Source: Lentzea tibetensis (lineage in GTDB: Bacteria; Actinomycetota; Actinomycetes; Mycobacteriales; Pseudonocardiaceae). Taken from it: a DNA stretch of 64,000 bases. A program made the position numbers and the translations under genes. This document shows, in pieces, positions 47,810-56,365 of the stretch. The notes under the pieces were generated by a model. That model searched no databases. It worked only from the letters and a program-made list of their open reading frames with translations, and was not told the DNA's origin. Position 1 is the first letter of the stretch. Each line of letters starts with the position of its first letter. The stretch is taken from contig NZ_VOBR01000029.1 in assembly GCF_007845675.1 (NCBI RefSeq), forward strand, positions 62,001 to 126,000. The letters run 5' to 3'.

Positions 47810-49531
47810 CTACCTCCCGGTCAGCCGCTTCAGCACGCTCGTGGTGATACCGGCCGCGTCGAGCCCGTGCGCCCGCAGGATCCGGGCCCGCGAGTCGTGC
47901 GGCAGGAACCGGGGCGGCAGGGCGAACGTGGCCACGGTCGTGCCGGTGCCCGTCATGGTCTGCCCGAGCCGGGCACCCAGCGCACCGGTGGACGTGGTGT
48001 CCTCCACCGCCATCACCAGCCGGAAGCCGGCCGCGTGCTGGACGAGGTGCTGGTCCAGCGGTGCGATCCACCGCGGGTCGACCACCGAGGCGCGGACACC
48101 GTGCCCGGCCAGCTCGGCGGCCGCCGCGAGACAGGGCTCGGCGAGCGGCCCGACCGCCACGAGCAGCACGTCGGCGTCCGGTTGTTCGGTCAGCACGTCG
48201 AAGTGGCCGACGCGCCGCACGGCCGGGATGTCCGGGCCCACCGAGGCTTTCGGGTAGCGCACCACGGTCGGCCCGTCGGTGACGTCGACCGCCTCGCGCA
48301 GCAGTTCGGCCAGGCGGGCGGGGTCGCGGGGTGCGGCGAGCCGCAGGCCGGGCACGACCGGGAGGATCGAGGCGTCCCACATGCCGTGGTGCGAAGCGCC
48401 GTCCGGACCCGTCACGCCCGCGCGGTCCAGCACGAACGTCACCGGCAGGCGGTGCAGCGCCACGTCCATGAGCAACTGGTCGAAGGCGCGGGTGAGGAAG
48501 GTCGCGTAGACCGCGACGACCGGGTGCAGGCCGCCCATCGCCAGACCCGCCGCGGACGTCACCGCGTGCTGCTCGGCGATGCCCACGTCGAAGACGCGGT
48601 CGGGGAAGCGGGCCGCGAAAGCGCGCAGGCCGACCGGCTCCAGCATCGCGGCGGTCAGGCACACGACGTCGGGACGGGAGGCGCCGATCGCGACGATCTC
48701 GTCGCCGAACGCGTGCGTCCAGGTGCGGCCGCTCGAGGAACCGGCGGCGCCGACGGCGTGCATGCGGTCGGACTCGTCCTGCTCGGCGGCCTCGTAGCCC
48801 TTGCCCTTCACGGTCAGGCAGTGCACGACCACCGGGCGGCCCAGTCGCTTGGCGCGCCACAGCGCGTTCTCGACGGCCTCCAGGTCGTGGCCGTCCACCG
48901 GGCCGACGTACTCGAGGCCCATGCTGGTGAACAGGTTGTTCTGGCCACCCTCGCGCAGCTCGGTGAGGTGCCGCGCCAGACCACCGGTCGTGGGGTCGTA
49001 CGAGCGGCCGTTGTCGTTCAGCAGGATCACGACCGGGCGGTCGGGTGCGCCGCCGATGTTGTTCAGCGCCTCCCAGCACATGCCGCCGGTCAGCGCGCCG
49101 TCACCCACCAGCGCGACGACCCTGCGGTCGCAGTGGCCGGTCAGCTCGAACGCCTTCGCCAGACCGTCCGCATAGGACAGTGCGGTCGACGCGTGCGAGT
49201 TCTCGATCACATCGTGCGCGGACTCGGCGACCGACGGATAGCCCGACAGGCCACCGGCCTGGCGCAGCGACTCGAAGTCGCCCGCCCGGCCGGTGAGCAT
49301 CTTGTGCACGTAGGACTGGTGGCCGGTGTCGAACAGCACCACGTCGGTGGGGGAGGAGAACACCCGGTGCACGGCGATGGTCAGCTCCACCGCGCCCAGG
49401 TTCGGGCCGAGGTGGCCGCCGGTGCGGTGCACCTTCGCGATCAGGAACGAGCGGATCTCGTCCGCGAGCGCGCGGAGCTCCGAAGTGGACAGTGCGCGCA
49501 GCGCGCCGGGACCGGTGATCTCACTGAGCAC
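47810..49531 (-). CDS. dxs: 1-deoxy-D-xylulose-5-phosphate synthase
   Basis: 573 residues from GTG 49531, overlapping the ispH stop by 11 bp. Thiamine site [21 protein letters not shown] with NDN, N-terminal [16 protein letters not shown] (catalytic His), [30 protein letters not shown] (Glu proton acceptor) and YPKAS near the end. It is about 50 residues shorter than the usual 620-640, with the loss spread through loops and no motif missing. It makes DXP from pyruvate and glyceraldehyde 3-phosphate, the first MEP-pathway step. Last gene of the terpene operon, and probably a second dxs beside a housekeeping copy (inference). Confidence 0.95.
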
Positions 49532-50438
49532 GGCGCACCGCCGACGGCAGCGTGAACTGGATGGTCTCCTCGGCGAGCGTTCGCTCGACCACCGAACGCG
49601 GGCCCAATGCCGAGATGACCTCGTCGACGAGCTCCGGTGGTGCCGACGCACCCGCGCTCAGGCCGATCACGCGCGCGCCCTCCAGCCACTCGGGTTTGAT
49701 CTCGCTCGCGTCGTCCACGAGGTACGCGGGCGTGCCGGAACGGTTGGCCAGCTCCACCATGCGCACCGAGTTCGACGAGTTGCGCGACCCGACCACGAGC
49801 ACCAGATCCGCTTCCTCCGCAACGGCTTTCACCGCCACCTGGCGGTTGGTCGTCGCGTAGCAGATGTCGTCCGAACCGGGGGAGAGGAGGGTGGGGTACT
49901 TGGCGCGCAACGCGTCCACGACCTCGACCGTCTCGTCGACGGCCAGCGTGGTCTGGGTCAGGTACGAGATCTGGTCGCCGGGCAGGTCGAGCCGGGCGAC
50001 GTCGTCGGCGGTCTCGACGAGCACCATCGGCGCTTCACCCATCGTGCCCTCGACCTCCTCGTGCCCCTCGTGTCCGATGAGGACGATCGTGTCGCCGCGC
50101 GCGGCGAACCGGCGCGCCTCGGCGTGCACCTTGGTGACGAGCGGGCACGTCGCGTCGATGACGTCCAGCTCGCGGCGCGCGGCCTCGTCGCGCACCGCGG
50201 GGGAGACGCCGTGCGCGGAGAAGACGACCGTCGCGCTCGGCGGCACCTCGTCCAGCTCCTCGACGAACACCGCGCCCTTCGCTTCCAGCGACGCCACCAC
50301 GTGCACGTTGTGGACGATCTGCTTGCGCACGTAGATCGGTCCGCCGCGCTGCTCCAGCAGCCGGTCGACGATCTCGATGGCCCGCTCCACCCCGGCGCAG
50401 AACGACCGGGGTGAGGCGAGCAGGACGGTGCGGTCCAT
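49521..50438 (-). CDS. ispH: 4-hydroxy-3-methylbut-2-enyl diphosphate reductase
   Basis: 305 residues from ATG 50438. The three [4Fe-4S] Cys are visible: [16 protein letters not shown] and [11 protein letters not shown]. His residues for diphosphate binding are in VHNVHVV and SAHGVSP. It makes IPP and DMAPP, the last MEP step. It lies 75 bp after the prenyl-synthase gene, with the repeated palindrome in between, so it may be partly separated from the upstream genes. Coupled to dxs. Confidence 0.97.
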
Positions 50439-53884: not shown

Positions 53885-54959
53885 TGCCCACCCCCAGCCG
53901 CGCCGCGGCCGTGCCGAGGCCGGTCGGGCCGCGCAGGATCGTGCGGGCGAACGCGTCGTTTCCCGTGCCCGCGCTGGTCTTCATGTAGCGACCGGCGTGC
54001 AGGTGCCACTCGTGCCCACCGGACTGCCAGTCCTGCAACCCCTTGACGTACTTGCCCACCAGCGCCTGCTGGACCGGGTCGACGCCGTGCTCGGCGAACA
54101 GCGGTGCCAGCTCGGTGAACACGGTGTTCTCGAACTGGTGCAGCCGCGAGGTGAGCAGGTCGTTGACGGCGTCGACGGCGCGCTGCGTGTCGTAGCCGAA
54201 GAACTTCTCGAACACGAGCACCCCGTTGGAGTTCTCGCCCTCCTGCTCGACTTCCCGTTGGTACGAGAAGATGTCGTTGCGCAGGTGGATGGCGTCCGAG
54301 AACGTGTCGCTGAGCACCCGGAGGGGCCGGGTGCCCGCGATGGATGCGGGCACCTCGGCGCCTTCGGACAGCTCGACCAGGTTCGCCGACCACGGTGCGC
54401 CGCCGACCTTGCGGCGCATCTCGATGTACTCGATCGGGTTGGCGACCCGGCCCGACTTCATGTTGTTGATCTCCCACATGCACTCCAGCAGGAGGTTGTG
54501 GGTGCTCGTCGTGAACCGCCGGCGCCAGTCCTGCGACATCAGCGGGATCGTCCGCTGCCACAGGTCGACCAGCCCGCGCTCGGTGGGGTTCGCCGGTTCC
54601 GGAGACGGGTCCGTGCCGTTGATCGGCATGAACGCGGGCAACCGGTCCAGATATGCCTTCGCACCGGCGACATCCGTGGACTTCTTGAACTCCGCGAAGA
54701 ACTCGTCGTCGAAGTAGAAGACCCAGACGTACCAGTCGGTGATCAGGTCGAGCATCTCCGCGGACGCGTCCGGGTGCGTGTACGCGCACATGAACCCGTA
54801 GTCGTCGCCCGCGAGGATCTCTTCCGTCCACACCCCGGTGCCGAGCATCCCCATGTCCCGCGCCCACTGCGTCGAGTGGACGCGGGCGCGCTCGAGGTGC
54901 GGGTTCATCCGTGCCGGGTGGGGCACGTAGAACTCCGGCAGTTCGAACGGCTGGGACAT
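53874..54959 (-). CDS. Germacradienol-type terpene cyclase, probable encapsulin cargo (TC1)
   Basis: 361 residues. It aligns along its length with the N-terminal half of geosmin synthase ([66 protein letters not shown]), which makes germacradienol and germacrene D from FPP. The C-terminal geosmin-forming half is absent. First metal site DDEFFAE at 84-90 differs from the DDHFLE of geosmin synthases; NDIFSYQRE at 228-236 is a complete NSE triad and R324-Y325 the RY pair. It starts on the stop of encapsulin A (TGATG). Geosmin itself is not expected unless another enzyme finishes it. Confidence 0.92.
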
Positions 54960-56365
54960 CAGCCCTCGCGACCGAGCTCGACGTGCTCCAGGACACCGAC
55001 GGCGTCGGGAACCAGGATCGCGGCCGAGTAGTACGCGCTGACCAGGTAGTTGATGATCGCCTGGTCGTTGATGCCCATGAAGCGCACGGACAGGCCCGGC
55101 TGATACTCGTCCGGGATGCCGACCTGGTGCAGTCCGATGACGCCCTGGTTCTGCTCGCCCGCGCGGATCAGCATCACCGAGCTGGTGCGGGTGTCGCTGA
55201 CCGGGATCTTGTTGCAGGGCAGGATCGGGATGCCGCGCCACGCCGGGAGCTGGTGGCCGTTGAAGTCGATGCTCGTCGGGTAGATGCCGCGCTTGTTGCA
55301 CTCGCGGCCGAACGCCGCGATCGTGCGCGGGTGGGCCAGGAAGTAGCCGGGGTCCTTCCACACGACCGAGAGCAGCTCGTCGAAGTCGTCCGGGGTGGGC
55401 GGCCCGGAGCGGGTGTGGATGCGCTGTTTGAGGTCCGCGTTGTGCAGCAGGCCGAAGTTCCTGTTGTTCACGATCTCGTGCTCCTGGCGCTCGCGCAGGG
55501 CTTCGATCGTGAGCCGCAACTGCTGCTCGACCTGGTCCATCGGCTGGTTGTAGAGGTCCGCGACTCGCGTGTGGACCTGCAGCACGGTCTGCGCGACGCT
55601 CAGCTCGTACTCGCGCGGCGAGAGCTCGTAGTCGACGAACGTGCCGGGCAGCACGGGCTCGCCGTCGTGGCCCGCCGACATGCCGATCTCGGCCTCGCCG
55701 AACTCGTTCTGCGGCTTGTTGCGGCTGCTGTGCGCCTGCTGGATGTGCGCGCGCAGTCCGCCCGCCTCACCGTTGAGCGCCTCGAAGTCCTGCCACGACA
55801 GGGTCAGCACGGTGACCGGCGTGACCGCCTTCGCGGTGAAGTCCCACTCGCCCTGCGGGCCGGCGAGGACGCTCTCACCGAAGTACTCGCCGTCGGCGAG
55901 GTTGCCGAGCACGGTCTCGTCGCCGTACTCGCCCTCGCCGACCTTGTTCACCTTGCCGTGCGCGATGAGCACGACCTGGTCGGAAGGGCGGCCCTTCTCG
56001 ACGATCACGTCGCCGACGCCGTACTCGCGCTGGGTGAAGCGGCCGGCGAGCGCCGCGAGGACGGCGTCGTCGTCGAAGCCGCGCAGCAGCGGGAGCTCGC
56101 ACAGCTCCTGCGGGACGACGCGGATGTCGGAACCGATGTTGGTGAAGGTCACCCGGCCGTCGCCGACCTGGTAGCTGAGCCTGCGGTTGACGCGGTAAAC
56201 GCCACCCGAAGCCTGAACCCAAGGAAGCACGCGCAGCAGCCAGCGGGAGGTGATTCCCTGCATCTGAGGCACGGACTTGGTGGTCGTCGCGAGATTGCGC
56301 GCCGCCGCCGTGCCCAAACTCAGCTGCTGACGGCCCTCATTGAGGTCAGAATCCGTCACAGTCAC
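54959..56365 (-). CDS. Family 2B encapsulin shell protein, EshA-like (paralogue A)
   Basis: 468 residues from GTG 56365 (in-frame GTG 56374 also possible). Same order as the paralogue at 51560: arm and N-terminal HK97 part, cyclic-nucleotide-binding-like insert (~95-200; [36 protein letters not shown]), and C-terminal HK97 P/A-domains ([51 protein letters not shown]). The two copies align with almost no gaps. That is what a mixed two-subunit shell would need. The insert carries W174-D175 at the Arg-Ser positions that bind cyclic-nucleotide phosphate in CRP. First gene of the operon. Confidence 0.93.

Follow-up and report, generated by a model that had tools for sequence, protein, structure and literature searches.

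Why should an operon for two encapsulin shell proteins also encode two terpene cyclases as separate chains, and what would the second of them do where it no longer carries the metal-binding triad of its class? These questions are raised by a locus of the soil actinomycete Lentzea tibetensis (assembly GCF_007845675.1), found in a window of 64,000 nucleotides (the whole stretch of DNA that was analysed, positions 62,001 to 126,000 of contig NZ_VOBR01000029.1, our contig C32, of a 9.36-Mb genome). From the open reading frames, seven minus-strand genes at window positions 47810-56365 follow each other in the order Enc1, TCn, TCc, Enc2, PT, ispH and dxs: two shell proteins of encapsulin family 2B, a germacradienol-synthase-type class I terpene cyclase (TCn), a shorter second protein of terpene cyclase fold (TCc), a polyprenyl diphosphate synthase and two enzymes of the methylerythritol phosphate (MEP) pathway. 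The reading that we favour, and to which we give a probability of about one half, is that of a mixed-shell operon in which TCn is the catalytic cargo and TCc its non-catalytic partner.

The two-shell arrangement as such is of a known kind. A catalogue of 503 two-component operons, amounting to 21% of family 2B (Dutcher, Andreas and Giessen 2025, PMC12407261), describes a TC/PT class with a cyclase between Enc1 and Enc2 and a prenyl synthase behind Enc2, demonstrates mixed shells for Streptomyces lydicus and reports no cyclic nucleotide binding by the family 2B insert domain. A 2021 survey (PMC8346489) had counted 165 systems with both a cyclase and a prenyl transferase and noted precursor genes beside prenyl-transferase encapsulins. 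The initial annotation of this DNA had taken the doubled shell with dedicated MEP genes for something little described; since the TC/PT class and adjacent precursor genes are both in print, that view was abandoned, and with it the idea of a new two-shell arrangement. The Lentzea locus shares with the TC/PT operons the Enc1 (VWK) and Enc2 (RRR) signatures, the cyclase slot between the shell genes and the prenyl synthase directly after Enc2. It differs from them in that two unlinked chains fill the slot, the second apparently eroded in its catalytic site across the genus, and in that the locus continues with ispH and dxs. What is new, and well supported by the sequences, is that a cyclase fold devoid of metal ligands has been conserved within a shell operon.

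The cyclase slot

The seven-gene order is identical in 24 of the 25 Lentzea genomes in our sample, the window genome included. Because it recurs in this way, the arrangement is not a product of chance, and the prospect that the order might be unique to one strain, which the initial annotation had left open, has been set aside. In these loci, the two cyclase genes look like the halves of one protein. NCBIfam model NF041168, which describes the GS-like (geosmin-synthase-like) cargo cyclases, has two domains over 735 positions; TCn covers positions 1-356 and the best stretch of TCc positions 503-663. With 603 and 244 bits, both lie below the cut-off of 1200 bits, and the single two-domain protein of the model is here divided between two frames. 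The Lentzea pair has in common with the GS-like cargo cyclases the two related domains and the GPTGLGTSAAR-type motif, which in those proteins stands between the domains and at the end and was considered a possible targeting sequence, a GLGT-type cargo loader (PMC8346489). It departs from them in being split, each half scoring below the curated cut-off. A G[LF]GT motif is present near the C terminus of both halves in 24/24 genus loci. Each chain thus has a loading-type tag of its own, and fusion would therefore not be required for the two to enter one shell.

The junction itself is compact. A candidate TCc start lies inside the end of TCn, with an overlap of 11 bp in the window and in one further strain (G024) and of 8 bp in 21 others, whereas in strain G012 (locus L056) a single base of difference, within a G/C run at the overlap, places both domains in one frame of 708 codons. 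Such a junction invites the thought that programmed frameshifting also yields a fused two-domain protein. The shortness of the overlap, the same relative frame in 23/23 split loci, the runs of G and C that directly precede the TCn stop in four inspected junctions and the single frame of G012 would all suit this explanation. However, there is a candidate TCc start codon inside each overlap, so that ordinary translational coupling explains the overlap, and we consider frameshifting very improbable indeed.

Loci outside the genus connect the two domains more directly. We fetched 11 two-shell loci with a prenyl synthase outside Lentzea, in stretches of 17-20 kb. The cyclase domains share one frame in five of them (L034, L060, L074, L075 and L083) and occupy separate frames in six (L036, L061, L062, L070, L078 and L079); split cyclases were found in four other genera. 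Locus L083, from another family, runs Enc1, fused cyclase, Enc2, PT, ispH, dxs, which is a six-gene version of the Lentzea order with the cyclase unsplit. It is one of only two outside loci with ispH or dxs beside the operon, having both; the other, L061, has ispH only. On account of the joint coverage of NF041168 and of these one-frame tandems, we rejected the idea that the second cyclase is independent of the first. The suggestion of the initial annotation that each shell protein is paired with one cyclase fares no better, given the one-frame tandems in 5/11 outside loci and a second half without the metal-binding triad in 22 of the 24 Lentzea loci.

TCn is close to the N-domain of germacradienol/geosmin synthase (5dw7), and in a domain tree (28 rows chosen from 71, the very long L070 and L036 rows omitted) it groups with geosmin-synthase N-domains at 100/100. 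A functional comparison is offered by KaGerS of Kutzneria albida, a protein 50% identical to a fragment of germacradienol/geosmin synthase that makes germacradienol and germacrene D from farnesyl diphosphate (FPP; PMC7192455). By analogy with this Kutzneria enzyme, TCn most likely makes a germacradienol-type sesquiterpene.

Several related arrangements came up alongside. The two-shell operon of Kutzneria viridogrisea (L061/L035) comprises three cyclase domains. TCn occupies a frame by itself and is followed by a fused protein, the last domain of which falls among the canonical geosmin-synthase C-domains. In Crossiella sp. S99.2 (L036), two divergent encapsulin clusters stand head to head, and in one of them a single frame of 755 codons encodes a prenyl synthase together with a cyclase domain. 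On contigs C55 and C1, away from the operon, the window genome encodes two synthases in which two domains are fused, each with both motif sets present. It also has, near the end of contig C26 (L068), a single-domain GS-type cyclase in a 416-codon frame, 34% identical to TCn and ending in a GPRGLGTSAAR tag; the fetched 11.8 kb around it contains no shell gene.

The metal site of the second cyclase

The two halves have fared very differently. TCn keeps the aspartate pair (DD) of the Asp-rich motif, the N, S and E of the NSE triad, the MRR arginines and the RY motif in 24/24 Lentzea loci; at its sixth motif position 22 of these have A, a residue shared by 2/10 comparison N-domains. TCc, in the 22/24 strains that we call the main clade, has none of the three NSE residues, and so lacks this hallmark of class I cyclases. 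In their place stand mostly Q (17/22, at N), G (20/22, at S) and E (18/22). The first D of the Asp-rich motif is left in 2/22, while the second D, both MRR arginines and the R of RY are kept in 22/22. We rejected misalignment as the source of this loss on two grounds. Scanned without any alignment, 34/34 N halves and 10/10 fused C domains show an NSE-like string and none of the 22 main-clade TCc sequences does; in a separate phmmer alignment, an NSE-less TCc runs gap-free through the NSE region of 5dw7.

The loss has a definite place in the genus. In a tree of Enc1 and TCn, the 22 triad-less strains form one clade that leaves out the window strain and its sister G024 (SH-aLRT 100); these two are not joined to each other. 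Both retain, by sequence, DD and an N-S-D triad (NDVVSFDKD in the window, with D replacing E). The simplest history, then, would place the split of the cyclase ahead of the diversification of the genus, with a single, later loss of the triad in the main clade. Outside the genus, the second domain keeps the triad in 10 of the 11 two-shell loci; the loss of NSE in the remaining one, L070, is apparently a separate event in another genus. Searches of 298 family and 394 class genomes, both sets being samples in which scoring covered the 5-7 best first-look candidates of each genome, gave no match above 220 bits to triad-less TCc outside the main clade, compared with at least 384 bits within it. From the 25 matches listed class-wide, our own included, 12 (not strictly the best 12) were fetched, and the second-domain triad is kept in 12/12. 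The triad-less form thus looks confined to the genus.

Has the second half, having lost its triad, simply been decaying? A remnant held for now by its position between TCn and Enc2 would account for TCc being the fastest-changing of the seven genes, for its 296 residues in the window and for the loss of metal ligands in 22/24. However, its frame is open in 24/24 genus loci, its tag is conserved, and broken frames occur only in dxs (two genomes) and PT (one genome). Moreover, for the 22 triad-less sequences the ratio of nonsynonymous to synonymous change (omega; IQ-TREE, GY+F3X4) is 0.096, which is a sign of purifying selection; fixing omega at 1, with kappa at its estimate and on the same tree, lowers the log-likelihood from -9616.6 to -10611.0, 994 log units worse. 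The corresponding values are 0.035 for TCn, 0.046 and 0.064 for the shells, 0.067 for PT, 0.049 for ispH and 0.048 for dxs (the window and G024 were left out of all sets, L040 and L042 also out of those for PT and dxs). A pseudogene was therefore rejected, and slow decay is unlikely. The fold, too, is predicted to have been kept. AlphaFold modelled one triad-less TCc and the window TCc with confidences (pLDDT) of 87.2 and 87.1; in both models the GLGT motif lies in a tail of low confidence (residues 275-296 in the window model, pLDDT under 50). The best Foldseek match of the triad-less model is 5dz2, the Mg-bound N-domain of geosmin synthase (TM-scores 0.85/0.89, 32% identity), so that a terpene-cyclase fold is predicted for triad-less TCc.

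Not everything sits comfortably with a non-catalytic partner of TCn, and the following points weigh against that reading. By the Nei-Gojobori method, the 40 closest pairs, none of them involving L040 or L042, have a median omega of 0.278 for TCc and 0.124 for TCn, and the comparison of the window with G024 gives 0.53 and 0.23; the faster evolution of TCc also fits partial relaxation. Erosion of the site goes further than the triad, the Y of RY being left in 7/22 main-clade sequences and replaced by F in 15/22. The triad loss is not true of the window strain itself, because its TCc keeps DD and N-S-D. The fusion in G012, seen in a single genome, may be a re-fusion or an assembly error. Finally, in the domain tree TCc falls outside the clade of canonical geosmin-synthase C-domains (100/100), and the window-type and main-clade TCc are joined at only 87/77. 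For this reason, "split geosmin synthase" would be too strong a description. We rejected it in its plain form; judged by its sequence, TCc represents a separate lineage of second GS-type domain. The Lentzea pair accordingly resembles germacradienol/geosmin synthase in the closeness of TCn to the N-domain and in the fold that best matches the triad-less TCc model, but what is there one bifunctional chain is here two.

The main rival to a non-catalytic TCc is one that is still an enzyme, having dispensed with diphosphate ionisation. It would rearrange the germacradienol-like alcohol made by TCn through protonation, and the loss of the triad would be a specialisation. There is a precedent in geosmin synthase, whose second domain takes germacradienol as its substrate (PMC10881772, PMC7192455), and the replacements of the triad residues given above are fairly uniform rather than random, in a fold predicted to be kept. 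Yet the full NSE triad is present in 10/10 fused second domains and 10/11 two-shell loci outside the genus, and since fused second domains keep it, the germacradienol reaction seems to need it; the position of TCc outside the canonical C-domain clade argues in the same direction. We regard alcohol processing as possible, if rather unlikely. That both cyclases are active independently, each with a shell protein and a terpene product of its own, would agree with the DD and N-S-D of the window TCc and with the proposal of Dutcher et al. that a pair of luminal loops could serve to load two cargos (PMC12407261). Against this stand the same type of tag on both chains, the triad gone in 22/24 and the one-frame versions that tie the domains together elsewhere, all of which makes this alternative distinctly improbable.

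Shells, precursor genes and neighbouring features

Table 1. Features of the Lentzea tibetensis two-shell encapsulin locus, in window positions.
Feature	Positions	Strand	Evidence
Enc1, family 2B encapsulin shell protein	54959..56365	-	NF041163 781.2 bits; PF19307 + PF00027
TCn, germacradienol-synthase-type class I terpene cyclase	53874..54959	-	5dw7 N-domain 513 bits; C-terminal GPTGLGT tag
TCc, shortened second terpene-cyclase-fold protein, 296 aa	52994..53884	-	PF19086 96 bits; C-terminal PSGLGTAA tag
Enc2, family 2B encapsulin shell protein	51560..52957	-	NF041163 758.2 bits; PF19307 + PF00027; motif SRRRK
PT, encapsulin-associated polyprenyl diphosphate synthase	50514..51560	-	NF041169 486.7 bits; PF00348; motif NFSLLHDDVMD
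ispH (HMBPP, i.e. hydroxymethylbutenyl diphosphate, reductase), extra copy	49521..50438	-	TIGR00216 302 bits
dxs (DXP, i.e. deoxyxylulose 5-phosphate, synthase), extra copy	47810..49531	-	TIGR00204 503 bits
TCn stop/TCc start overlap, 11 bp, tandem cyclase split point	53874..53884	-	candidate TCc start inside TCn end
PT-ispH spacer with long hairpin	50439..50513	-	-58.5 kcal/mol, z -7.65

What the initial annotation had said of the seven genes, their order and their place agrees with the coordinates and family models in Table 1, as do its assignments of both shells to family 2B, of terpene cyclases as the likely (predicted) cargo and of ispH, dxs and PT as a local precursor supply. Its further suggestion that the two shell proteins may co-assemble is one that we share. 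Its overlaps at most junctions are likewise there, at four of six (Enc1-TCn 1 bp, TCn-TCc 11 bp, Enc2-PT 1 bp, ispH-dxs 11 bp); the other two are gaps (TCc-Enc2 36 bp, PT-ispH 75 bp). Enc1 starts with GTG, an alternative GTG at 56374 being possible, and its best solved relative is 9bje (689 bits). Both shell proteins score well above the NF041163 cut-off of 400 bits and have, as predicted from sequence, the HK97-type SrpI-like domain with an inserted cyclic-nucleotide-binding-like domain that defines family 2B. They are 69.2% identical (322/465). Enc1 of the window carries the Enc1-type motif SVVWKDPG; diagnostic motif 1, which two-component operons carry on two shell genes within 10 kb of each other, reads VWK in 24/24 genus Enc1 and RRR in 24/24 Enc2, the latter extended as RRRK in the window and G024 and as RRRN in the other 22. 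For diagnostic motif 2, a pattern of our own making found no match in Enc2 of 22/24 genus loci.

In each of these 24 genomes exactly two shell genes exceed the family 2B cut-off. The 25th genome is a draft, 92% complete; its Enc1 runs into the edge of a contig of 3,657 bases, and a search at E 1e-50 gave no PT. Frames are broken in two of the 24, dxs lying in two frames in L040 and L042 and PT too in one of these. Six open frames flanking the locus in the window, perhaps not all of them genes, recur in 21-22 of the 23 stretches fetched from relatives; the locus has therefore mostly been inherited in place.

PT exceeds the cut-off of NF041169 (450 bits), the model for encapsulin polyprenyl transferase cargo. 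Its motif NFSLLHDDVMD, found in 24/24 genus loci, has an aromatic residue at position -5 of the first DDxxD, a position that serves as a product-length rule for prenyl synthases and here suggests a C15-C20 product. The window genome has further dxs copies on contigs C19 (613.6 bits) and C31 and further ispH copies on C21 and C31, and at least two ispH genes lie above the cut-off in 16/16 genus genomes searched. As the Dxs and IspH of the locus are extra copies, the operon may boost MEP flux. The additional dxs and ispH on C31 stand side by side (35310-37980), away from the encapsulin locus.

A few further features were recorded. Across the 24 genus loci, median synonymous divergence (dS) is 0.13-0.17 in Enc1, TCn and Enc2 and rises to 0.27-0.34 in TCc, PT, ispH and dxs; stronger expression of the shell genes and TCn could account for the lower values. 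The spacer between PT and ispH holds a long palindrome, of which the window has a second copy at 38338-38394. Its half-sites, with at most one mismatch, number 13 genome-wide (three in the window) compared with 0 for a reversed-pattern control, and the palindrome was not seen in the same spacer of 23 relatives; it looks like a dispersed hairpin repeat of the window genome. On the plus strand, opposite the 5' parts of both shell genes, Rfam family RF02735 (Sernc350, a Saccharopolyspora antisense RNA) matches at 55830-56338 and 52428-52929 with 210.5 and 182.8 bits (gathering threshold 50). These matches hint at antisense RNA over family 2B shell genes, or may only reflect conserved coding sequence. 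A scan of 47600-56800 found no sigma-70-type promoter, the model used being little informative for actinomycetes.

A possible shell in place of a covalent link

How might the pieces work together? Under the explanation that we favour, Enc1 and Enc2 would form a mixed shell, and Dxs, IspH and PT would raise the local supply of prenyl diphosphate. TCn would be the catalytic cargo. TCc, the counterpart of the second domain of the tandem cyclase and a separate chain across the genus, would join it in the same shell by means of its own GLGT tag, fusion being no longer needed. After the split, the main-clade TCc would have given up class I chemistry and been kept as a non-catalytic partner of TCn, be it a subunit, a loader or a protein for product hand-off. 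The window TCc, shortened as it is, keeps its metal ligands and may for that reason still be reactive. The foundations of this explanation are gene order, the split, motif loss, selection and tags, all read from sequence, and a predicted fold. Carried one step further, it becomes a more tentative proposal, namely that Lentzea has cut a bifunctional shell-targeted cyclase in two and turned its second half into a dedicated metal-less pseudo-cyclase, with its own tag and in the service of the active half, the shell replacing the covalent link.

Split or inactive cyclases are not mentioned in the accessible part of the two-component catalogue (PMC12407261). Among the matches listed in searches of openly licensed literature, there was no report of an inactive or pseudo terpene cyclase or of a split geosmin synthase, nor did those on encapsulated cyclases include one of an inactive or split enzyme. 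Prior work on encapsulated 2-methylisoborneol synthase reportedly exists.

For annotation, the locus carries a warning: both halves fall below the NF041168 cut-off, while Pfam still labels the triad-less second half a metal-binding terpene synthase. If our proposal is true, a class I terpene cyclase of Lentzea would have a pseudo-enzyme as a subunit, and the window strain would represent an earlier stage. The locus family as a whole spans fused-intact forms, split-intact forms, split forms with the triad (the window strain and G024) and split forms without it, some of them in named isolates. It thereby allows one to ask whether co-encapsulation can take the place of covalent fusion and what a metal-less cyclase fold does inside a shell, and it makes the purpose of two-component encapsulins and of tandem cyclase cargos a question that can be put to the test.

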